Assembly (NCBI GenBank): GCA_022510705.1
Contig: JAFLSX010000002.1
Location: 41,818 to 105,817 of the forward strand
DNA from: Lachnospiraceae bacterium
GTDB taxonomy: Bacteria > Bacillota > Clostridia > Lachnospirales > Lachnospiraceae
Reading direction: 5' to 3'
Length of the DNA stretch: 64,000 nucleotides
Shown here: in pieces, positions 6,650 through 17,646 of the stretch
Layout of the letters: each line of letters begins with the position of its first letter
Numbering within the stretch: position 1 is the first letter of the stretch
Position numbers and translations under genes: made by a program
The notes under the pieces: generated by a model
The model's input: only the letters and a program-made list of their open reading frames with translations
Told to the model about the DNA's origin: nothing
The model's database searches: none

Positions 6650-6680
6650 AAAAGCGCCGGTCAGTGGATCGGCGCTTTTC
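6650..6680. terminator. Bidirectional terminator between leuS and minus-strand gene
   Basis: aaaagcgcc(g)…(c)ggcgctttt inverted repeat between convergent CDSs. Confidence 0.7.
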
Positions 6681-6978
6681 TCATGATATTATCTATCTGT
6701 TTCAGTTCCTCCGGTGTGCTGTATTTTTTGATGGCGCTTATAACGGCGCCAACCTCGGCGGAGGAAAAAGAAATGGATTCGTTTTTTGCCTGTTTCATTT
6801 TGGTCATCATAAAGGGCATGAGTTCTTTTTGACTCTTTCCCTGACAGCCTGTTACCAGTTCTCCTAAAAAACGCAGCTTATTTTCTTCTATGTTGTTTAA
6901 GATGGGATCTGACATCCACTCAGGTCTGTTTTCCATATTTCTCTCCAATGTGTGGGTGCACACGAATCTTTCTTTCAT
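6661..6978 (-). CDS. Hypothetical protein
   Basis: 105-aa ORF; 1-nt overlap with the upstream minus-strand ORF suggests one operon. Confidence 0.6.
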   Translation of the reverse strand: MKERFVCTHTLERNMENRPEWMSDPILNNIEENKLRFLGELVTGCQGKSQKELMPFMMTKMKQAKNESISFSSAEVGAVISAIKKYSTPEELKQIDNIMRKAPIH

Positions 6979-7415
6979 TATTTTGAGAGCATCTGAAACA
7001 TCTGCATAAAATCCTCTGCGCCGCCATCCCCGTCACCGAAGTGAAAGCCTTCGGGAAAAATCTCTTTCATCATATTGACGGTTTCCATCATTTCCTCAGC
7101 ATTTTTTAGGGTGGAGAAGATATCTATCAGCCGCTCCACCTTTTTTCTTTCCGCATAGGAGCAGTAGGGGAGAATTTCATGATAGAGTTGTGTGGTATCC
7201 GACAAGATCTCCCTCGGCATACAGCCGAAGGGATGATGTTTAAAATAGGCGGCAGTATATTGAAATTCCAGATACTTGATATAGACGGCAAGCTGCTGTT
7301 GCAGGGACGGATCCAGATAGGGGAGAAGCAGCTTGTATATCTGTATATGATTGGTTGTAAAGAGTGCGTCAAAGGCCCGAATTCTGTCCTTTTTTTCGGC
7401 TTCATCCCTGCTCAT
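6978..7415 (-). CDS. Hypothetical protein
   Basis: 145-aa ORF co-oriented with and touching 6661..6978; acidic, helical; no recognised family. Confidence 0.6.
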   Translation of the reverse strand: MSRDEAEKKDRIRAFDALFTTNHIQIYKLLLPYLDPSLQQQLAVYIKYLEFQYTAAYFKHHPFGCMPREILSDTTQLYHEILPYCSYAERKKVERLIDIFSTLKNAEEMMETVNMMKEIFPEGFHFGDGDGGAEDFMQMFQMLSK

Positions 7416-7515: not shown

Positions 7516-7743
7516 TTAGTTGTTGCAGCCACCGCAGAAGCAGGAGATCAACAGAATCCAGATTAACAGATCGCAGCTGTTGTTGTTGCCCCAGCCGTCA
7601 TTGTTGTTTAAGAGTCCGATACCGTTGTTGCCATTGCAGAAAGCAAGCAGCAGGATGATCCAGATCAGATTGTTGTTGCCGCTGCGGCCTTCATTACCGG
7701 AGCATCCGCAGTTGCTGGCAGTTAAATCGCTCATATTAAGCAC
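7516..7743 (-). CDS. Small Asn/Gly/Cys-rich hydrophobic protein (YjcZ/spore-coat-like in composition)
   Basis: 75 aa with CGCSGNEGRSGNNN, LIWIILLLAFCNGNNG, two LIWI(I/L)L(L/I) hydrophobic segments and terminal CFCGGCNN; RBS-like gaggtg upstream on the minus strand. Confidence 0.55.
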   Translation of the reverse strand: MLNMSDLTASNCGCSGNEGRSGNNNLIWIILLLAFCNGNNGIGLLNNNDGWGNNNSCDLLIWILLISCFCGGCNN

Positions 7744-7884
7744 CTCTAGGTTTTTTTATGGTTTATATTATGAGGGTGAGCATGTCAATGTTTCCTGATT
7801 TTGTTAAAAAAATTAAAACTTTAAGGTCTTGCATTAATTTTAATATGTAGTAAAATAATCATGTATAATAAAATTAGGGATAGT

Positions 7885-9081
7885 ATGTATTCGAGGCTGA
7901 TGGATATGAATACACAAATGGTTTCGGGAAGGCAGTTTCGAAATGCCGCTGACTATGAGGCGGCTCTCAAGGATGCCGCTTACATAGATGCACTCAAGAA
8001 AAGGTATGATCTGAATACCAAAGAGGGTGTTACTTCCTTTCTGCAGGACATACGGAGTGGAAAGTACCGCTTCCGTACTATCTTAGGTCAGGATCTGAAG
8101 GAAGAACTGGAAGAACTGTTGGAACAGAAGAAAAAAGAAGCGGCTGCAGATACCGGTAAGAGTAAGAAAGGAAAAAGAAGCGGTTCCGGTATTTCAAGCC
8201 CAAAGAAGTCCTCTGCAAAAAAACAAAACACAAAGAAATTGGAAGATTATGATGCGGATATGCAGAAGTCCATTCTGCAGGAATTAAAAAAACGGGAGCG
8301 CATCAGAAAGCTTGTTATGGTTGTCTGCCTATGTATGGCAGGGGGATGTTTTGTTTATCTGGGGATTTATTCCTATCAGACCAGTAGACTGGACGCCTAT
8401 GCGGCTTCCCAAAGGAGACTGATCGGAACCACGGGTATTGTGGCGGATCAGACACCGGAAACGGTGGTGATCCATTATGACAATCAGGAACTTGTGGTGC
8501 CGGATGTCTTAGATGATTATAAAACTTTATATACTTTGAACAAAAATCTAATCGGATGGGTTAAAATTGACGATACATATATAGATTACCCTGTATTGCA
8601 GACAACGAACAATGAATACTATCTGGATCATAATTTTGATCAGGAACAGGATAAGAACGGCAGCATTTTTTTGGATAAGGATTGCAGCATCTTTCCAAGA
8701 AGTGACAATCTGATCATTTATGGGCATCATATGCGCAGCGGCCGAATGTTCGGACAGTTAAACAAGTACAGTTCGGAGTCCTTTTATGAGGATCATAAAT
8801 ACATTCAGTTCGATACCATCTATGAAATGGGCACCTATGAAGTCATGTATGTGTTCCGTTCTAAAATTTATGAAGAAAGTGAAATAGTCTTTAAATATTA
8901 TCAGTTCACTAATGCGACATCGGAAATAGAGTTCAACTCCTATATGCGGGAGATGGCGGAGATGTCCTTATATGATACCGGTGTAACGGCGCAGTACGGA
9001 GATGAGCTTCTGACGCTGTCCACCTGTGATTATTACACGGATTACGGCCGTTTTGTGGTAGTGGCAAAACGAATCTATTAA
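7885..9081 (+). CDS. Class B sortase with ~150-aa cytoplasmic N-terminal extension
   Basis: Catalytic TLSTCDYYTDYGRFVVVAKR, HHMRSG, IDYPVLQTTNNEYYLDHNF. ORF extends to 7861, but the ATG at 7885 has AGGGA upstream, so that start is preferred. Confidence 0.9.
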   Translation: MYSRLMDMNTQMVSGRQFRNAADYEAALKDAAYIDALKKRYDLNTKEGVTSFLQDIRSGKYRFRTILGQDLKEELEELLEQKKKEAAADTGKSKKGKRSGSGISSPKKSSAKKQNTKKLEDYDADMQKSILQELKKRERIRKLVMVVCLCMAGGCFVYLGIYSYQTSRLDAYAASQRRLIGTTGIVADQTPETVVIHYDNQELVVPDVLDDYKTLYTLNKNLIGWVKIDDTYIDYPVLQTTNNEYYLDHNFDQEQDKNGSIFLDKDCSIFPRSDNLIIYGHHMRSGRMFGQLNKYSSESFYEDHKYIQFDTIYEMGTYEVMYVFRSKIYEESEIVFKYYQFTNATSEIEFNSYMREMAEMSLYDTGVTAQYGDELLTLSTCDYYTDYGRFVVVAKRIY

Positions 9082-9110
9082 ACCGGATTTCCGGATGAAG
9101 GAGATGCGAA

Positions 9111-12100
9111 ATGGCAAAGAACAGTGAAAAGAAAAAGAATATCGGGCTGCGCAGGAGAGTGCGTAAAACCATGGGTGCAGCCTGTCTGATCACGGCAATT
9201 TTGGTAGCGGCGATCCCGGTACCGGAAGCGAGCGCGGCGGAAGAGGGCCCGAAAAAACTGACTTGGGTGGATCAGATTGAAAAGAATTCTAAAATTCCGC
9301 TGGTTCCCGGGGACTGCGAAACTATCTATACTACGGACGACGGCAGGTATCAGTTTGCATGGGTGACTGCGTCTGCACAGGATACAAAGAGGATAGCGGT
9401 AATCTTAGGTTATAACGGCGGTACTCTTACCGGCGGCAATCTGGTGATCCCGGACGAAGTTGACGCTTACACCAAGTTCAGTGAGAACGAGGGTACGGGC
9501 ACGGGATACGTGGCCGTAAGCCAGAGCCAGAAGCCCCTGTACTATATGTCCGAGGTTGTCTATAACAAGGATGTTTCGGGAAATGATATCATTGGTGACA
9601 TTGATTATGAAAATTCCAAGTATCTTCCCTGCTATGCCAATACCCGTGACCAATGGATGTATGTAGGAGAAGGGACCGGCAGGAAAGAAAGACCTCTGGA
9701 TGAGTTTTACTATCTGGAAAGAGGAGAATATAAGCGTACTGAGAATAGCAATGAGCAGTGGATCCGTAAGATTACGGTGGCCTATATCGGCAACCAGTAT
9801 CTGGAGCCTAATAAGAGCGGTCCGAATGCGGACGGAATACAAGTGGAATGGAAAATAGCCGACGCTGTTAAAACCACTTACAATACGAATCCGGATAAGG
9901 GCATCTTTGCAAACCAGGGAAATATTACCAACCTGACGGTGGGTGAGAACTTAGTAGGTATCGGTAACTATGCCTTTTATAATTGCAGCACGTTAGATAC
10001 CATCACCTTAGGAAACGGTATTGAAGAAATCGGGCACCATGCTTTTGCCGAATGCATCAACATGCGGTCCATCGGATTGGATTTTGGCAGCAATTTAAAC
10101 TATATTTCCGACTATACCTTCTATAATTGCCGCGCCCTGACCAGCTTCCAGCTGCCGGCCGGCGTGAATAAGATTTACGACCATGCCTTTGATGGATGCG
10201 AGGCCTTGACAACCGTAGATTTAAACGGAGCGAAAGACGGTAGAAATACTGCGCTGCAGGATTTGGGCTACTATGTATTTAACGGTTGTATAGCCTTAGA
10301 AGATTTAGTATTGCCAAGTTCCTTGACGGGAAATACGGTAAATGGTACAGCCAATGCGATTCATTTGAACAATTTTGCAGGCTGCAGCAAACTAAAAAGG
10401 ATTCAGGTGCTGGCTTCTTCACTGCACTTGGTAACGGATGGCCTGTTTACCGTAGAGAATTTTAAGAATTCCGTGGATCCTACTTTCTATTTTGAAGCGG
10501 ATGGCACTGCCAATACGCATACGTTTACACAGGATAATGCTATTGCGTTCAAATATGCGGGTGAGGATCGATATGAGATCATCATTATAGAAAAAGCAAC
10601 AAAGCAGGCAGGCGGCGGAGATTCCAAATTGACATATCAGGTCAACTCCCGCAATGAGTTGCTGAATTTTGATATGGAACTGCCGGTGGAAGTGGTGACG
10701 ATTCCCAGCACCATCGGTCCTTACGGCGTGTCCGCCATTAATTCGGGAAGCTTTGGCGGCGGTGCCGGCAGCTGTTACTTAAAGAAGATCACCATTCCGG
10801 GAACCGTAACCGTCATTGGTGAGAACGCTTTTAGAGGCTGTCACAATCTGGAGCATGTTATTTTTCTGGATGCAAGCAGAATCACCACTATCGGGAAAAA
10901 TGCATTTGCGACACAGCTGGTTGTGGGCAGCCATCAGGGTCAATGCGAAAATCCGAAGTTCCTGGAGCCTGTCGGTGGTATTGTGGCTGCTCCCAAACTG
11001 ACCTTTACAGGTGCGGTATATGATGAGGCGACCGGGAAGATCTGTGAACCCTTTGCCTATGCAATGAACCCAAGCAGTAATATCAATCAGGGTTCGCAGC
11101 CCAGTACCTATATTACCTATTACACCGGATGGCCCACCAATCTGGAGATACAGTATGTTTATGATCAGGGGACCAAAACCGGAGCGGCTACGCTGATAGA
11201 CTATCCGACAGCTACGGAGTTAAAGACAGGTTCTAAGTATACAACCGCTGCATATCCTTATATGACCCAGGAATATGTGGAGGCGGCAAAGAATGCCTTT
11301 AGCAAGGATCCGGGTAGTAGATCCGACTATGAGAAACAGATCGTGGACGCGGCCTTGAATGTATCCGTGCCCATGGGTGTAAAGCGCATTGCAACCGGAC
11401 TGTTTTCCAATGCGACATCATCGGTAACGCAAAATGAGAAAGGTGAATATATCTATACTGGTGAGGTGGAGAAAGTTGATGAATCTAAAACGGCGGATAC
11501 CGATATCCAGAGCGTGACTTTCGCCGATATTGCGGAGTTTGAGCCCTACAGCTTTACCGGCTGCACCAGCTTAACGACCATCAATATTACCGGCGGAGAG
11601 GCTGTAATAGATGATTATGCCTTTGCTTATGAATATACTGATCCGGAGAATGAAGAGGGCAGTCAGTCTGCACTGACTACTGTGAATATGACGCGCGGCG
11701 GCAGCACGATTGGTGATTATGCATTTTGTAATAACAAAAAACTGACCAATGTGAAGCTTTCCTCCACCGTATCGGAATTGGGACTTCGACCTTTTAAAGA
11801 TTGCTCGGCGCTTACTAATGTGGACTTCTCCGGAGGACCGTATTTTAAAACCGAAACATGCATTATCTACGGACTGGATGCTGCCGGTAATAAGAAGGTT
11901 TTGGTAGAATGTCTGGAGAGCCGCGGTAAGGGAGGCGAACGCGGAAGTTCTACGGTCAGTGCAACGGAGACCGCGGGCATTAAGGAGATCCGCCCGGAAG
12001 CCTTTATGAATTGTGATAGCGTGGGAGAGGTGGATTTTAGCAGTTCCAATATTGAGACTGTGCCGGTGCGTGCCTTTGCCGATACCGATAATCTGTACTC

Positions 12101-13799
12101 CGTGTATCTGCCCACTACCTGCTATAGTATTGGTGATCAAGCCTTCCATGACAGTAGTCTGCAGCGTATAGGGATTCCCCGCAGTGTCAGCCTTATCAGC
12201 CTGACTGCGTTTAATCATAAGGATAATCCCCGGACGGACGGCGAGACGAGAACGATAAACTTTTACACTGAGTTGGAATTGCCGAAATGCGCGGCTGTGG
12301 TTTATGCAGAAAATTACGAGAACATTGATCCTACGGAAGCGCCGGATTCCAGAGAGTTTACGGTATACTTCTGGTATTATGACTACAGTGCGGAGGTAGA
12401 GGAAGGCGAGGCACCCCCTCTGGTACTGAAGGAACAGTGGACGGTAAGCATTGGAACGACTATCGATGAAAGGCTTTTGCCTACCGCACCTGATTTTACG
12501 AAGTATGGCTATGAGTTTGTACGCTGGACCGGCAATCTGGTCGATATTTCCATGGATACGAATATTACTGCGTATTATAAGAGTATCGATTCCTCGGAAT
12601 CCATGTTAAAAGTAAGTTACTATCTTGATACGGGTGATGCGGAGCCTTGGCAGATTATGGAAGTGCGGTACGGTGCGACTGCTCCCTTTTTGATGCCGCC
12701 GGCTGATAAGATACCGGAAGGGTATACCTTTGTTGGCTGGAGCGGCGAGCAGGGCTTAGAGAATATTACGCATGATACAAGATTTTATGCTAAGTATGAA
12801 CTCGGTGACAGCACAGGAGGCAACGGTTCCGGCAATGGTACTGATGGAGACGGTAATGGTAACGGCAATGGCAATGGTAATGGTAATGGTCAGAATGGTA
12901 CGTTCTATACGCTGACCGTCAAAAACGGCAGCGGTTCCGGCAGTTATGTGGCCGGCGCTACGGTCATCATTGTAGCTAACGAGCCTGCCAGCACGCAGCA
13001 GTTTGACAAATGGACGCAGGAAGGCAGTACCGATCTGAAGATGGCAAGCACCACCATTTCGGCTACCACATTGGTAATGCCTGCGGCAAATACTACGGTA
13101 ACGGCAAATTATACCACGAAACCCGGAAGCGGAAGTGGCGGAAGCGGAAGCGGCAGTGGTGGAAGCGGAAGCGGAAGCGGTGGCGGAACCACAAACAAGC
13201 CCACCGTATCCGGCAACGGAGGTACGACCACAGTTGTGATCGATAAGAACGGACTTTCCAATACCGGCGTGGTATCGGTAACGGTAAAAGGATCTTCGGA
13301 CAATTTTATCTTAAAGATTTCGGAGGACACCAATGCAACGGAGGCTGCTATCAGAGCACTGATAGCAGAGTATGGAAGTCTGGATAATATTAAGTACTTC
13401 CCCATGGATATTTCACTCTATGATTCAACGGGAACTACCAAAATTACGGATACTTCGGGGCTTTCCATTACGATTACACTGCCCCTGCCGGATTCCATGA
13501 TTACCTATGCGGGTAACAACAGAATTGCGGGTGTGGTAAATGATAAGTTGGATAAACTTTCACCTAAGTTTACTACGATTGACGGCGTATCCTGTATCAC
13601 CTTTACGGCGGAGCATTTCTCACCCTATGTTATTTATGTGGATACTTCGAATTTGGAGTCTGCGGGTGTGACCGACAGATCACCGAAGACGGGAGATATT
13701 CATCCTAAGTGGTTTATAGTGATGGGACTGGCATGTATGTCCGTTATCCTGTTTGTAAAGAAGGATAAGAGCGGCAAAAAGGTACTGGTCCGGGCTTAA
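9111..13799 (+). CDS. BspA-like leucine-rich-repeat cell-surface protein with InlB/Listeria-Bacteroides-type repeats, (GN)n and (GS)n linkers and SPKTGD sorting signal
   Basis: Signal peptide-like N-terminus; many LRR_5 units (IGNYAFYNCSTLDTITLGNGIEEIGHHAF); YGYEFVRWTGNLVDISMDTNITAYY repeats; C-terminal RSPKTGDIHPKWFIVMGLACMSVILFVKKDKSGKK. Confidence 0.9.
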   Translation: MAKNSEKKKNIGLRRRVRKTMGAACLITAILVAAIPVPEASAAEEGPKKLTWVDQIEKNSKIPLVPGDCETIYTTDDGRYQFAWVTASAQDTKRIAVILGYNGGTLTGGNLVIPDEVDAYTKFSENEGTGTGYVAVSQSQKPLYYMSEVVYNKDVSGNDIIGDIDYENSKYLPCYANTRDQWMYVGEGTGRKERPLDEFYYLERGEYKRTENSNEQWIRKITVAYIGNQYLEPNKSGPNADGIQVEWKIADAVKTTYNTNPDKGIFANQGNITNLTVGENLVGIGNYAFYNCSTLDTITLGNGIEEIGHHAFAECINMRSIGLDFGSNLNYISDYTFYNCRALTSFQLPAGVNKIYDHAFDGCEALTTVDLNGAKDGRNTALQDLGYYVFNGCIALEDLVLPSSLTGNTVNGTANAIHLNNFAGCSKLKRIQVLASSLHLVTDGLFTVENFKNSVDPTFYFEADGTANTHTFTQDNAIAFKYAGEDRYEIIIIEKATKQAGGGDSKLTYQVNSRNELLNFDMELPVEVVTIPSTIGPYGVSAINSGSFGGGAGSCYLKKITIPGTVTVIGENAFRGCHNLEHVIFLDASRITTIGKNAFATQLVVGSHQGQCENPKFLEPVGGIVAAPKLTFTGAVYDEATGKICEPFAYAMNPSSNINQGSQPSTYITYYTGWPTNLEIQYVYDQGTKTGAATLIDYPTATELKTGSKYTTAAYPYMTQEYVEAAKNAFSKDPGSRSDYEKQIVDAALNVSVPMGVKRIATGLFSNATSSVTQNEKGEYIYTGEVEKVDESKTADTDIQSVTFADIAEFEPYSFTGCTSLTTINITGGEAVIDDYAFAYEYTDPENEEGSQSALTTVNMTRGGSTIGDYAFCNNKKLTNVKLSSTVSELGLRPFKDCSALTNVDFSGGPYFKTETCIIYGLDAAGNKKVLVECLESRGKGGERGSSTVSATETAGIKEIRPEAFMNCDSVGEVDFSSSNIETVPVRAFADTDNLYSVYLPTTCYSIGDQAFHDSSLQRIGIPRSVSLISLTAFNHKDNPRTDGETRTINFYTELELPKCAAVVYAENYENIDPTEAPDSREFTVYFWYYDYSAEVEEGEAPPLVLKEQWTVSIGTTIDERLLPTAPDFTKYGYEFVRWTGNLVDISMDTNITAYYKSIDSSESMLKVSYYLDTGDAEPWQIMEVRYGATAPFLMPPADKIPEGYTFVGWSGEQGLENITHDTRFYAKYELGDSTGGNGSGNGTDGDGNGNGNGNGNGNGQNGTFYTLTVKNGSGSGSYVAGATVIIVANEPASTQQFDKWTQEGSTDLKMASTTISATTLVMPAANTTVTANYTTKPGSGSGGSGSGSGGSGSGSGGGTTNKPTVSGNGGTTTVVIDKNGLSNTGVVSVTVKGSSDNFILKISEDTNATEAAIRALIAEYGSLDNIKYFPMDISLYDSTGTTKITDTSGLSITITLPLPDSMITYAGNNRIAGVVNDKLDKLSPKFTTIDGVSCITFTAEHFSPYVIYVDTSNLESAGVTDRSPKTGDIHPKWFIVMGLACMSVILFVKKDKSGKKVLVRA
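12830..12899 (+). repeat. Low-complexity ggtaatggcaat tract encoding Gly-Asn linker
   Basis: Translation GGNGSGNGTDGDGNGNGNGNGNGNGQNG. Confidence 0.85.
13126..13190 (+). repeat. Low-complexity ggaagcgg tract encoding Gly-Ser linker
   Basis: Translation GSGSGGSGSGSGGSGSGSGGG. Confidence 0.85.
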
Positions 13800-13811
13800 G
13801 ACCGGAAAGGT

Positions 13812-16685
13812 ATGGGGATTTATATGAAGAAAACGCTGCGACTTTCTTTAAGCGCACTGCTTCTGGCCATTGCCATTGGGGTGACGCAGATACCGGCGCT
13901 GCCATTGATAGCAGAGGAATCGGTATCCAAAGATTCGGATTTTGAATTAAAAGGGACCATATTGGTCAGTTATACAGGCACGGCTAAAACCGTGTCTGTT
14001 CCTGCTTCTGTTACGGAGATAGGTGCAGAGGCTTTTGCGGGCAATACTACTATGGAGAAGCTGGAGTTTAAGGGGAGCGCAGTAGAAAAGGTTGACTACA
14101 GGGCTTTTGCAGGCTGCAGTGGTCTGAAAGAAGTAAAACTACCCAATTCCGTACTGCGTCTGGGAAACGGTGCTTTTGCAGATTGTACCGCACTTGAAAA
14201 ATTTACGATCGGTTCAGGATTATCTGATCCGGGTATCGGTACCTTTGCGGGTTGTATAGCATTAAAAACCATTACCGTAGACAAGAACAATACAGCTTTT
14301 TCCGTGGATGACGGATGTTTATATAATGCTGATAAGAGCAAACTTTATTTACTGTTGCCGGTGAGGAAATCAGACAGCTATACCATGCCTTCTTCTGTAA
14401 CGGATATTGCGGAATATGCTTTTTGGGGTAATGAGGCCGTTACTACCGTAAGACTAAGCAGTAATTTAAAGAAGATACCTGACTATGCCTTTGCAAACTG
14501 TAAAAGTTTGACGGGTATTTCAATCCCTTATTCGGTTACCGTCATTGGACTGAAATCCTTTGCTGACTGCGTGAATCTGGAAAATGTCAGCATTCCTTCT
14601 TCTGTACTTATCATACATGATACAGCTTTTGACGGATGCAAAAAACTCAATATCATAGCACAGGAGAATACACCTGCCTATGACTTTTTTGAGGAATGGA
14701 AAAAGAGAAATCCATCAAAAAATGAAGATGTGACAACGGATAATACAAATTCATTTCCTTTTGGCGATTTATTAGGCAGCGTCAGCGGAGGAGATTCCCA
14801 AGGGAATATATCTCAAGGGAATACGTCCCAAGGGAATACGTCCCAAGGGAATACTTCTCAAGGAAGCAATCATGGTACGGGGAATACCACTGTTGAGAGC
14901 GGACCTATGGGAAATATACTGGGCAGCACCTATATTGTGGGGAATTCTGCGGTAGTTCTCGTGGACAGTGCATTGCTCAATGCACAGGGCACTGCGGCAG
15001 TCCCGAATGCTGGGCAGAGTGATGGCAGTAGTGGTAACACAGAAGGTAATACCGGCACAATCCCTGACGGAAGCGTAGGCGGAACGGACGGTATTGTTGA
15101 GGAGATAAAACCGGAAGGAAGTACAGAAAAGGGCTATGATATTCCCAAAATGATAGTGGCCGGAAATACCGTTTTAGCAGATCTGGCTTATTATCAGAGC
15201 AGCGGTATGGCGGATTATCAGTTCCCTAACGGCATAGAGGAAATCGGAGAGTTCGCATTTGCACGGAGCAATATCACTAAGGCGAATATACCTAACGGTG
15301 TGAAAGAAATTGCGTATGGTGCGTTTTATCACTGTGATTATCTGAGCGAGGTTCGCATTCCGTCCTCTGTTACATATATTGCGCCCAAAGCATTTGATAA
15401 GAGTATGTGGTTGGAAACCTGGCTGAATGCCTCGGGTGATGACTATTTAATCGTGGGAGACGGTATTCTGTTAGCCTATCGGGGAGATGGAGGCAATCTT
15501 ACGCTTCCGGATACGGTGAAGGTCATTGCACCGGAAGCATTTGCGAATAACCACAGCATTGTTTCTGTATATTTGCCGGATTCGGTCACTGATATTGGAG
15601 AGGATGCCTTTGCAGGCTGTATCAATTTGGAAAAAGTAACCGGTGGAGCCAATGTAAAGACGATCCGTGACAGGGCTTTCGCAGGCTGTGAATTAAGTTC
15701 GGCCCATGTTTTTGCCAATGTAACGCAGTTAGGGCTGCGGAGCTTTGATTTTTCCCAGACATCCTATGGAGATTCCCAGAAAGTAGTGGTATTTGACAGT
15801 ACGGATGCATTGCCGGTTGCGGGACATGAGTTGACGGCCGAAAGACTTTCTAACACACAGGCAAGGGGCAATATTTTAGGTGATACCAAAATTGTAGTGG
15901 TGGATAAAAAGATTCGGGCAGAGCAGTTGGCCAATCTGGCACTCTTTACGGATGGCAGTGGGTTTAAGGGTCTGATCGTATATATCAGTTCCAGAGATCA
16001 GGCACAGGTTACCTGTCTGGCAACCACCTATACAAAAGAGGAACTGGCAAGTGTTTATCTACCGGACTATGTTTCCATTGATGGAAAAAGTTATGAAATA
16101 TTGGGCAAGGAAAATCCTGTGATATTGGGAAATTCGCAGACCTATACACCGGGAAGCATAGAGGTAGTAAATACCGGAAGTGCGTTAACGGGCAATATCA
16201 GTGCGACACTGGGAGGAAATACAGGAGCCTACAGGCTGGATATAACGGATGATGAAAACGGAGCGGAGGCCATAAAAGCAGGATATGAGGCTGTTTATCG
16301 AGAGGAACTTCCTTCCAATGCGGTATTTGCGGAAATGAACCTGATCGATTGCAATACGGGTGTGCCGATAACCAAGATGGGAATGCAGTCCCTGCAGGTA
16401 ACGGTAACCCTGCCTGCTTCGGTAAGCGGTGGCAGTCTGCGGATATTTACGGTGGACAGAAACGGACAGCTTGAAAGTCTGAGCTATACTTTATCCGGCA
16501 ATAATGTGACCTTTTCCACAAATCATCTATCCCCCATTGCTTTTTGCAGGGTAAGCAATACTGTATCGGGCAGGTTGGACGCTTCTCCGGATACGGGGGA
16601 TAAGCAGATCAATCCCAATTATATTTTGGCGGCAGGTCTCGTGGGTCTGGCCGTAGCAATTCTGTTTATTAAAAAGAAGAGATAG
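13812..16685 (+). CDS. BspA-like leucine-rich-repeat cell-surface protein with SPDTGD sorting signal
   Basis: LRR_5 repeats (VTEIGAEAFAGNTTMEKLEF…), N-terminal signal (KKTLRLSLSALLLAIAIGVTQIPALPLIAEE; initiation may be at MKKTL, 13824), C-terminal ASPDTGDKQINPNYILAAGLVGLAVAILFIKKKR. Confidence 0.9.
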   Translation: MGIYMKKTLRLSLSALLLAIAIGVTQIPALPLIAEESVSKDSDFELKGTILVSYTGTAKTVSVPASVTEIGAEAFAGNTTMEKLEFKGSAVEKVDYRAFAGCSGLKEVKLPNSVLRLGNGAFADCTALEKFTIGSGLSDPGIGTFAGCIALKTITVDKNNTAFSVDDGCLYNADKSKLYLLLPVRKSDSYTMPSSVTDIAEYAFWGNEAVTTVRLSSNLKKIPDYAFANCKSLTGISIPYSVTVIGLKSFADCVNLENVSIPSSVLIIHDTAFDGCKKLNIIAQENTPAYDFFEEWKKRNPSKNEDVTTDNTNSFPFGDLLGSVSGGDSQGNISQGNTSQGNTSQGNTSQGSNHGTGNTTVESGPMGNILGSTYIVGNSAVVLVDSALLNAQGTAAVPNAGQSDGSSGNTEGNTGTIPDGSVGGTDGIVEEIKPEGSTEKGYDIPKMIVAGNTVLADLAYYQSSGMADYQFPNGIEEIGEFAFARSNITKANIPNGVKEIAYGAFYHCDYLSEVRIPSSVTYIAPKAFDKSMWLETWLNASGDDYLIVGDGILLAYRGDGGNLTLPDTVKVIAPEAFANNHSIVSVYLPDSVTDIGEDAFAGCINLEKVTGGANVKTIRDRAFAGCELSSAHVFANVTQLGLRSFDFSQTSYGDSQKVVVFDSTDALPVAGHELTAERLSNTQARGNILGDTKIVVVDKKIRAEQLANLALFTDGSGFKGLIVYISSRDQAQVTCLATTYTKEELASVYLPDYVSIDGKSYEILGKENPVILGNSQTYTPGSIEVVNTGSALTGNISATLGGNTGAYRLDITDDENGAEAIKAGYEAVYREELPSNAVFAEMNLIDCNTGVPITKMGMQSLQVTVTLPASVSGGSLRIFTVDRNGQLESLSYTLSGNNVTFSTNHLSPIAFCRVSNTVSGRLDASPDTGDKQINPNYILAAGLVGLAVAILFIKKKR
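14796..14867 (+). repeat. 15-bp tandem repeat (tcccaagggaatacg), about 4.8 copies, encoding SQGN(T/I)
   Basis: Units at 14796, 14811, 14826, 14841, 14856 with near identity; translation SQGNISQGNTSQGNTSQGNTSQGS. Confidence 0.9.
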
Positions 16686-16692
16686 AACACCA

Positions 16693-16738
16693 AAGAAAAA
16701 CTTCGGCATATGATAAGGAAAAAGCCGGAGTTTTTCTT
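16693..16738 (+). terminator. Terminator-like hairpin between LRR gene and subtilisin gene
   Basis: 15-bp stem aagaaaaacttcggc (16693-16707) / gccggagtttttctt (16724-16738) with one G·U pair; the 3' arm contains ggag 10 nt before the next ATG. Confidence 0.65.
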
Positions 16739-16740
16739 AT

Positions 16741-17646
16741 ATGTACAGAGTACGTAAGCAAATTGACGCTGCGGTCACGGAAGCCGGTAACGAAAAGCTG
16801 GCCGTTGCGGTACTGGATACGGGAGTTGTGGAACATCCGGATTTGAGAGGGCGAATTAAAGGTTTTCAGGATTTTATTGAAGGCGGCCGCAAAATTTATG
16901 ATGACAGCGGACACGGTACGCATGTCTGCGGAATCATAGGAGGCAACGGGGCGCTCTCCGGCGGCAAATACAGAGGCATCGCACCTTCGGTCAACCTGGT
17001 GGTTGGAAAGGTATTGGATAAAAAAGGGGACGGAACGGTGGAGGCCATGTTGGATGGTATCGACTGGGTATTGGAAAAAAAGTCGGAATGGAATATCCGG
17101 ATTTTAAATATATCGGTGGGAATTGGCCGGCTGATGAATGAAGAGAAAGAGGCCATGTTAAAAAACAAACTGGAAAATGCCTGGAAAAAGGGGCTTCTGG
17201 TGGTCTGTGCGGCCGGTAATAACGGTCCTGCCTGTGATACGCTTTCTTCCATCGGAAAAAGTAAACTGTTGATAACGGTGGGATGCCATGACGGAGAATA
17301 CTTTCAGGGCAGCGCAAAACGCTGTGCAGCTTATTCTTCCAGAGGCGACAGATTTGATACAGGCAAAAAGCCGGATATTGTTGCACCGGGAACGGAGATC
17401 ATATCCTGTAACGGTGGTGTGAGCAGAGGTTTGGGAGGCTATAGCAATGCTTATATTTCAAAAAGCGGCACCTCTATGGCTACACCCATTATATCAGGTG
17501 CTCTGGCACTGCTTGTGCAGAAACATCCGGAATATGACAATGAAACGGCAAAACGTAAGCTCTTATACACGGCTACGGATTTAGGAGAACCCTGGTACCA
17601 ACAAGGCTGGGGAATGGTGAATGTAAAGCGGCTGCTGGAAGGATAG
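16741..17646 (+). CDS. Subtilisin-like S8 serine protease without signal peptide
   Basis: Catalytic triad motifs AVLDTGVVEHPDL, DDSGHGTHVCGIIGG, KSGTSMATPIISGALAL. Confidence 0.93.
   Translation: MYRVRKQIDAAVTEAGNEKLAVAVLDTGVVEHPDLRGRIKGFQDFIEGGRKIYDDSGHGTHVCGIIGGNGALSGGKYRGIAPSVNLVVGKVLDKKGDGTVEAMLDGIDWVLEKKSEWNIRILNISVGIGRLMNEEKEAMLKNKLENAWKKGLLVVCAAGNNGPACDTLSSIGKSKLLITVGCHDGEYFQGSAKRCAAYSSRGDRFDTGKKPDIVAPGTEIISCNGGVSRGLGGYSNAYISKSGTSMATPIISGALALLVQKHPEYDNETAKRKLLYTATDLGEPWYQQGWGMVNVKRLLEG

Follow-up and report, generated by a model that had tools for sequence, protein, structure and literature searches.

Three adjacent genes in the window (the whole 64,000-nucleotide stretch of Lachnospiraceae DNA analysed) are likely to form a conserved Lachnospiraceae wall-anchoring cassette, in which a class B sortase would read the code [TS]PxT[GA]D and dock to a common partner through a cytoplasmic N-terminal domain (N-domain). 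We propose that the sortase gene and the genes for two LRR proteins, LRR1 and LRR2, are transcribed as one unit, and that Sec exports both LRR proteins, which a hydrophobic helix and a basic tail at the C-terminus then retain in the membrane. The extracellular domain of the sortase would then attack the T-G bond of SPKTG or SPDTG via Cys389 and move the cleaved proteins onto peptidoglycan, so that large adhesin-like LRR proteins are displayed. The N-domain, joined via one TM helix, most likely docks the sortase to a cytoplasmic or membrane partner, either to position the enzyme or to couple it to envelope signalling. The surface adhesins of Lachnospiraceae, which are abundant commensals of the gut, are poorly charted, and the motif together with its sortase clade would allow anchored proteins to be predicted in many genomes of a kind in which LPXTG-tuned models score at or below cut-off.

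Gene content and boundaries of the cassette

The sortase ORF (406 aa) scores 166.8 bits against the curated SrtB model TIGR03064 (cut-off 153.75), which places it in class B, and 52.9 bits against the Pfam Sortase family PF04203. Its best solved relatives are the B. anthracis SrtB structures 2oqw and 1rz2, and a Foldseek search with the structure model, whose catalytic part is of moderate confidence only, returned SrtB for all top matches (2oqw, E 7.9e-18). Residues H289 (in YGHHM), C389 (in TLSTC) and R397 are all intact, and they are invariant among the 16 sortase orthologues compared. These results bear out the original prediction of a class B-type enzyme with a TLSTC...R active site; homology and linkage suggest a transpeptidase that would cleave at its sorting motif and transfer the product.

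Both downstream proteins score far above the Pfam cut-off of 27.7 for PF13306 (LRR_5), which marks them as BspA-type LRR proteins, and LRR1 also contains an InlB-type B-repeat domain (PF18998). Their C-terminal tails, SPKTGDIHPKWFIVMGLACMSVILFVKKDKSGKKVLVRA in LRR1 and SPDTGDKQINPNYILAAGLVGLAVAILFIKKKR in LRR2, each combine a pentapeptide motif, a hydrophobic helix and a basic tail. Tails and domains thus confirm the earlier description of two large LRR_5 proteins that end in SPKTGD or SPDTGD, a TM helix and K/R residues, not in LPXTG. Searched as single proteins, the two score 15.8 and 16.3 against the anchor-model cut-off of 15.9. When all 46 xPxTG[DE] sites in the genome were checked, three lay in an anchor-like tail, namely those of LRR1 and LRR2 and one VPQTGD; an anchor HMM search of the genome added one further tail, RPQTSD. 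From these features, LRR1 and LRR2 are predicted to be covalently wall-attached, adhesin-like proteins.

Table 1. Features of the cassette, in window coordinates.
Feature	Position	Strand	Evidence
Promoter-like site TTAATA-18-TATAAT	7840..7869	+	10/12 consensus match; sites of this type not enriched over shuffles
Class B sortase: cytoplasmic N-domain, one TM helix, extracellular catalytic domain	7861..9081	+	TIGR03064, PF04203, active-site residues, SrtB structure match
Cytoplasmic N-domain, residues ~19-96, beta-hairpin and three helices	7915..8148	+	pLDDT 88.5, orthologue conservation
Sortase catalytic domain, residues ~215-404	8503..9072	+	phmmer alignment to 2oqw
LRR1: secreted 1562-aa BspA/LRR_5 protein, predicted substrate	9111..13799	+	PF13306 241.3 bits, PF18998 37.8 bits, orthologues directly downstream of sortase
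LRR1 sorting signal: SPKTGD, TM helix, basic tail	13680..13796	+	TIGR01167 21.4 bits (genome search)
LRR2: secreted 957-aa BspA/LRR_5 protein, predicted substrate	13812..16685	+	PF13306 268.4 bits
LRR2 sorting signal: SPDTGD, TM helix, basic tail	16584..16682	+	TIGR01167 21.3 bits (genome search)
Hairpin, 15 bp, U-rich 3' side, closes three-gene unit	16693..16738	+	-20.2 kcal/mol

The module had been placed at 7861 to 16685. The ORF ends are exact, but the sortase probably starts at 7900 or 7906, because a -10-like TATAAT (7864-7869) falls on the first ATG (7861) and the sortase orthologues begin near residue 16 of the ORF. The gaps between genes are 29 bp (sortase-LRR1) and 12 bp (LRR1-LRR2), and the hairpin downstream of LRR2 has a z of -6.7, with none of 200 shuffles equally stable. 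An S8 subtilase was rejected as a member of the unit, as this strong hairpin precedes its gene, which some relatives lack or carry in the opposite orientation. A sortase-assembled pilus locus was likewise rejected, no pilin domain being found among the neighbours scanned.

The cytoplasmic domain of the sortase

The least expected part of the cassette, absent from the original prediction, is the N-domain of about 78 residues, whose fold is predicted with confidence when it is modelled alone. Searches of Pfam and NCBIfam gave no match and the PDB gave no fold match; DnaB_bind, PipX, PRP38_assoc and other candidate identities were rejected as sub-threshold noise. Our search of the open-licence literature found no class B sortase with a cytoplasmic domain, although one may be described elsewhere. 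The domain also occurs on other Lachnospiraceae SrtB clades, where TPxT[GA]x proteins adjoin in 12 of 15 loci. It is not phylum-wide, being present in 2 of 200 genomes of a phylum sample, both Lachnospiraceae. The tree does not establish one origin for all N-domain sortases, as its branching is resolved within the supported clades but not at the base that joins them.

Homologues of the domain extend beyond sortases, to a ~200-aa single-TM Lachnospiraceae protein encoded beside a sensor-regulator gene pair of a two-component system (TCS), with the source genome copy at C50:13404-13943. This TCS-linked protein shares with the sortase the cytoplasmic domain at the N-terminus and a single TM helix after it; it has no sortase domain, and its gene directly precedes that of the response regulator (13/13 genomes read). 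It is present in all 26 sampled genomes with a domain-bearing sortase, which suggests that anchoring and envelope signalling may be linked in the cytoplasm. A more specific version, in which the N-domain would be a signalling adaptor that, via a partner common with the TCS-linked protein, couples the state of surface anchoring to the envelope TCS or takes its placement from the TCS, we consider unlikely. Were it true, the cell would control the sortase from within, for which we found no example in the literature searched. The sharing of the domain by a sortase and a TCS-adjacent protein poses a testable question about cytoplasmic control of sortases.

It is quite conceivable, if short of probable, that the N-domain is instead a neutral spacer or membrane-insertion aid that has no partner, and that its likeness to the TCS-linked protein reflects ancestry and not role. 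Several cassette members lack most of the domain and keep their substrates, the linker that comes next (residues ~98-124) varies and is modelled as disordered, and, the genomes being related, the co-occurrence weighs less than the number of genomes suggests. Against a spacer speak the conservation of the domain in 80 orthologues (D38 at 100%; G23, F26, Y32, I42, G67, G76 and F at position 79 at 91-98%), the high confidence of its predicted fold, its presence on several SrtB clades as well as on the TCS-linked protein, and the constant coexistence of that protein with domain-bearing sortases in the sample.

The anchor motif and its probable recognition

The compared genomes are related to each other, so the following counts are not independent. 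All 85 readable LRR1 tails in relatives carry [TSN]PxT[GA][DE], mostly as TPKTGD, and position x, usually K in LRR1, is D or N in LRR2. The background is low, a [ST]PxTG[DE] motif with a TM tail occurring in 1 of 781 other ORFs of the relatives' loci. SPxTGD, first proposed as the sorting code, fits the local tags, but in relatives T mostly stands in place of S. From these tails the motif of the family reads [T>S]PxT[GA]D, with SPxTGD as the local variant of a small sub-clade.

Recognition of (S/P)PxTG by C. difficile SrtB, on which the proposed code had drawn, agrees with the literature, in which the enzyme cuts SPKTG and SPKTG is essential for wall attachment (PMC5569036, PMC4371152). Like the cassette, that system (substrates CD3392, CD2537 and CD0386) pairs a class B enzyme with an SPKTG signal, TM helix and basic tail. 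It differs in having PPKTG among its substrates, which are listed from the genome as a whole, and the first motif position, which fits SPxTG in the local tags, is mostly T in the cassette relatives. As a structure match to the cassette sortase, C. difficile SrtB (29% identity) is weaker than Bacillus SrtB (37%). Mediterraneibacter gnavus, also of the Lachnospiraceae, has SrtB1-6, of which SrtB3 anchors the SPXTG proteins IbpA and IbpB, and candidate targets lie near other SrtB genes; these substrates, unlike ours, are superantigen-like immunoglobulin binders and not LRR proteins, and the text consulted mentions no cytoplasmic domain (PMC13121745). SrtB handling of SPxTG is already known from these two systems, and the cassette joins that type. 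For TPKTG as a sorting signal, or LRR proteins with a sortase in Lachnospiraceae, the open-licence literature gave no relevant description, although one may have been published elsewhere.

Two further systems are comparable in part. Streptococcal abpA-srtB likewise sets a class B sortase gene beside a dedicated adhesin gene, but the adhesin has LPKTS and a short AVK tail with no TM helix (PMC4974636), and the cassette sortase reaches just 57 bits with the LPKTxAVK-specific model, whose cut-off is 200. LRR1 and LRR2 share LRR_5 repeats with BspA/LRR_5 surface proteins, HupY/LrrG-type adhesins among them, and show a partial similarity to NF047961 (76.7 and 113.8 bits, far under the curated cut-off of 1250); the anchor motif of those proteins differs.

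SPDTG may not be a substrate, because C. difficile SrtB, which takes SPKTG, leaves SPSTG and SPQTG unprocessed in vivo (PMC5569036) and LRR2 has D at position x. LRR2 would then be membrane-held by its C-terminal helix, with LRR1 alone anchored to the wall. LRR2-like proteins of 37 relatives have no sorting signal, some ending with just a TM helix and a basic stretch. We nevertheless think this rather improbable, since [ST]P[DN]TGD is kept in the LRR2 tails of 45 relatives, often in the xHPKWF context seen in LRR1, a retention that would be puzzling if recognition were not under selection.

Linkage and other sortases

The source genome (84.7% complete) holds two further sortase genes, C43 and C23, and we can only infer that the module is self-contained, as was originally predicted. 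That one of these enzymes anchors the LRR proteins, with the cassette sortase serving others and the linkage being an inherited neighbourhood, is very unlikely. In its favour, no substrate is linked to the C43 sortase, which is 47% identical to the cassette sortase over the catalytic domain, and SrtB enzymes can process proteins encoded away from them, as in C. difficile (PMC5569036). Against it, the protein encoded beside the C23 sortase bears another tag, RPQTSD; linked tags are mostly missing for sortases that fall outside the cassette clades; linkage is kept across divergent relatives; and in one relative (G086, 100% complete) the cassette sortase is the sole sortase and adjoins both tagged proteins.

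We favour instead a dedicated enzyme-substrate cassette, as first proposed, because the linkage is conserved at one site in dozens of Lachnospiraceae; the short gaps and closing hairpin agree with it. The sortase-LRR1-LRR2 order recurs in genomes of the family and in named Lachnospiraceae, and the shared chromosomal site lies near leuS and citramalate synthase/icd.

Architecture of the sortase unit

The cassette consists of a class B sortase gene and two genes for LRR_5/BspA proteins, LRR1 and LRR2, which lie exactly where the original prediction had placed them. The sortase scores 166.8 bits against the curated class B model TIGR03064 (cut-off 153.75), has B. anthracis SrtB as a solved relative (2oqw, E 1.8e-37), is predicted to adopt the class B fold, and keeps H289, C389 and R397 intact, which bears out its earlier assignment. 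The BspA-type reading of its partners also stands. Each C-terminal tag is followed by a hydrophobic stretch and then a basic tail. The genes are separated by 29 bp (sortase-LRR1) and 12 bp (LRR1-LRR2). Downstream of LRR2, a hairpin of 15 bp, U-rich on its 3' side (-20.2 kcal/mol, z -6.7), marks the end of the unit; an S8 subtilase gene comes next. Because the first ATG of the sortase (7861) overlaps a -10-like box and orthologues begin about 15 residues downstream, translation probably starts at 7900 or 7906.

Features of the unit, its surroundings and related loci (window coordinates unless prefixed; L, locus read; C, contig; G, genome, with G000 the source genome)
Feature	Coordinates	Strand	Remarks
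Two small ORFs	6661-6978, 6978-7415	-	between leuS and sortase; no Pfam match
72-aa peptide	7516-7734	-	divergent from sortase; Cys/Asn/Gly-rich, MSDLTASNCGCSGNEGRSGNNNLIWIILLLAFCNG...CFCGGCNN
Promoter-like site	7840-7869		upstream end of cassette; such sites show no excess there over shuffled sequence
Class B sortase	7861-9081	+	TIGR03064, solved relatives, predicted fold
LRR1	9111-13799	+	LRR_5/BspA protein, C-terminus SPKTGD
LRR2	13812-16685	+	LRR_5/BspA protein, C-terminus SPDTGD
S8 subtilase	16741-17646	+	next after unit; D/H/S motifs intact, no obvious signal peptide
Upstream protein, 1800-2090 aa	L154:3548-9811, L178:3686-9832, L185:3896-9289, L157:4370-9874		relatives only
Secreted protein, 2892 aa	L100:1978-10656 (G000:C5)		orphan VPQTGD signal, no sortase nearby
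C23 sortase region	L099:9059-11266 and L006		divergent second sortase, then Pro-Thr-repeat protein partly masked as N
TCS-linked protein	C50:13404-13943; L257:7393-7959		source genome
N-domain protein, 487 aa	L229:1489-2949 (G076:C4)		third setting; no sortase domain

Conserved tags and the enzyme predicted to act on them

In a family sample of 200 genomes, 24 relatives carry a sortase scoring at least 270 bits to that of the cassette; we read these loci with their flanks, together with one lower-scoring locus and 80 additional named loci from GTDB genomes. The sortase-LRR1-LRR2 order recurs, as the synteny expected of a dedicated unit would have it, within the series leuS, (two small minus-strand ORFs), sortase, LRR1, LRR2, (S8), citramalate synthase, GntR, icd, where names other than sortase, LRR and S8 were assigned by eye from sequence. 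The two small ORFs hold their position in many relatives; the subtilase is syntenic in many, inverted or missing in some. Several relatives encode, directly upstream of the sortase, a large protein with a signal-peptide-like start that is absent from the window.

All 85 LRR1 proteins of relatives with a readable C-terminus bear [TSN]PxT[GA][DE] (TPKTGD 56, TPSTGD 7, SPKTGD 6, TPKTAD 4, others 12); the 781 remaining ORFs in these loci include one such tail. [ST]P[DN]TGD is present in 45 LRR2 proteins. A sorting signal is lacking from 37 LRR2-like proteins, and in some of these the C-terminus is a bare TM helix. Thus the proposed SPxTGD sorting code describes the source genome's two tails but not the family, in which it is a small sub-clade's variant of a mainly TPKTGD system.

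The source assembly (2.19 Mb, 79 contigs, 84.7% complete; nearest named kin, uncultured Lachnospiraceae) only partly matches the picture of a self-contained enzyme-substrate pairing. Tags are confined to few tails: with every xPxTG[DE] site read, 3 of 46 are anchor-like, namely SPKTGD (LRR1), SPDTGD (LRR2) and VPQTGD on a contig C5 protein, and an anchor HMM contributes one more, RPQTSD, just 3' of the Pro-Thr-repeat protein near the C23 sortase. Two more sortases, on C43 and C23, accompany the cassette enzyme (C12). The C43 contig, which ends shortly after its sortase, has no linked candidate substrate.

In G086, a 100% complete genome, the single sortase domain found genome-wide lies beside LRR1 (TPTTGD) and LRR2 (TPDTGD). 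In G137 (81% complete) the cassette sortase is the only one found and SPQTGD occurs on an unlinked 1907-aa protein; unlinked substrates may therefore exist. In a tree, the cassette sortase falls within a 48-row clade (support 90/95) that excludes the C43 and C23 enzymes of the source genome. Elsewhere in the family, class B sortases have conjugation-type genes or spoIIGA/sigE-like genes as neighbours, as judged by eye, and have no linked tag except one SPKTGV case. Loci L265, L266 and L273-L276 hold short class B sortases amid what look by eye like conjugation-type genes, without the N-domain described below or a linked tagged protein, which suggests that mobile elements carry SrtB of their own.

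By homology, LRR1 and LRR2 would be exported by Sec, C389 would attack at the T-G of the tag, and the cleaved proteins would be transferred to peptidoglycan. C. difficile SrtB processes SPKTG in vivo, matching LRR1, but not SPSTG or SPQTG (PMC5569036); LRR2's SPDTG is therefore only a candidate tag. In M. gnavus, SrtB3 anchors SPXTG proteins, and candidate targets have been noted near other SrtB genes (PMC13121745).

A predicted cytoplasmic domain shared with a protein linked to a two-component system

The cassette is thus real and of an already known type, and the original prediction was largely right, although it missed what sets this variant apart: an undescribed N-terminal domain and its paralogue linked to a two-component system (TCS). 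Sortase residues ~19-96 are confidently predicted to form a small domain of a beta-hairpin and three helices (pLDDT mostly 85-94 within the full model, 88.5 modelled alone), followed by a disordered basic linker and a TM helix. Since basic KKRERIRK precedes that helix, we infer that the domain is intracellular. No Pfam or NCBIfam family covering it was found, and Foldseek against the PDB gave no match (best E 4.4). A handful of cassette members with a shortened N-terminus still keep TPKTGD or TPKTAD substrates, so the domain is dispensable for tag recognition.

A profile search placed the N-domain in two further settings. In other SrtB clades, a TPxT[GA]x protein, often LRR2-like, lies directly downstream in 12 of 15 domain-bearing loci. 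The second setting is a TCS-linked protein of ~200 aa with the same N-domain, a single TM helix and a short segment at the C-terminus; a response regulator follows directly in 12/12 relatives, with a histidine kinase too in most, and both follow in the source genome. In reverse, the paralogue's profile matches the cassette sortase N-terminus at 2.3e-10. Within a 150-genome sample, the TCS-linked protein is present in 26/26 genomes with a domain-bearing sortase versus ~33/124 others (p 4e-13 on an assumption of independent genomes that does not hold here). The role that we favour for the N-domain, as a conjecture, is docking to a partner common to both proteins; actual signalling coupling through it seems unlikely. 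A protein in G076 carries the N-domain apart from any sortase domain. At phylum level, a sample of 200 genomes contained the domain in two, each a member of the source genome's family.
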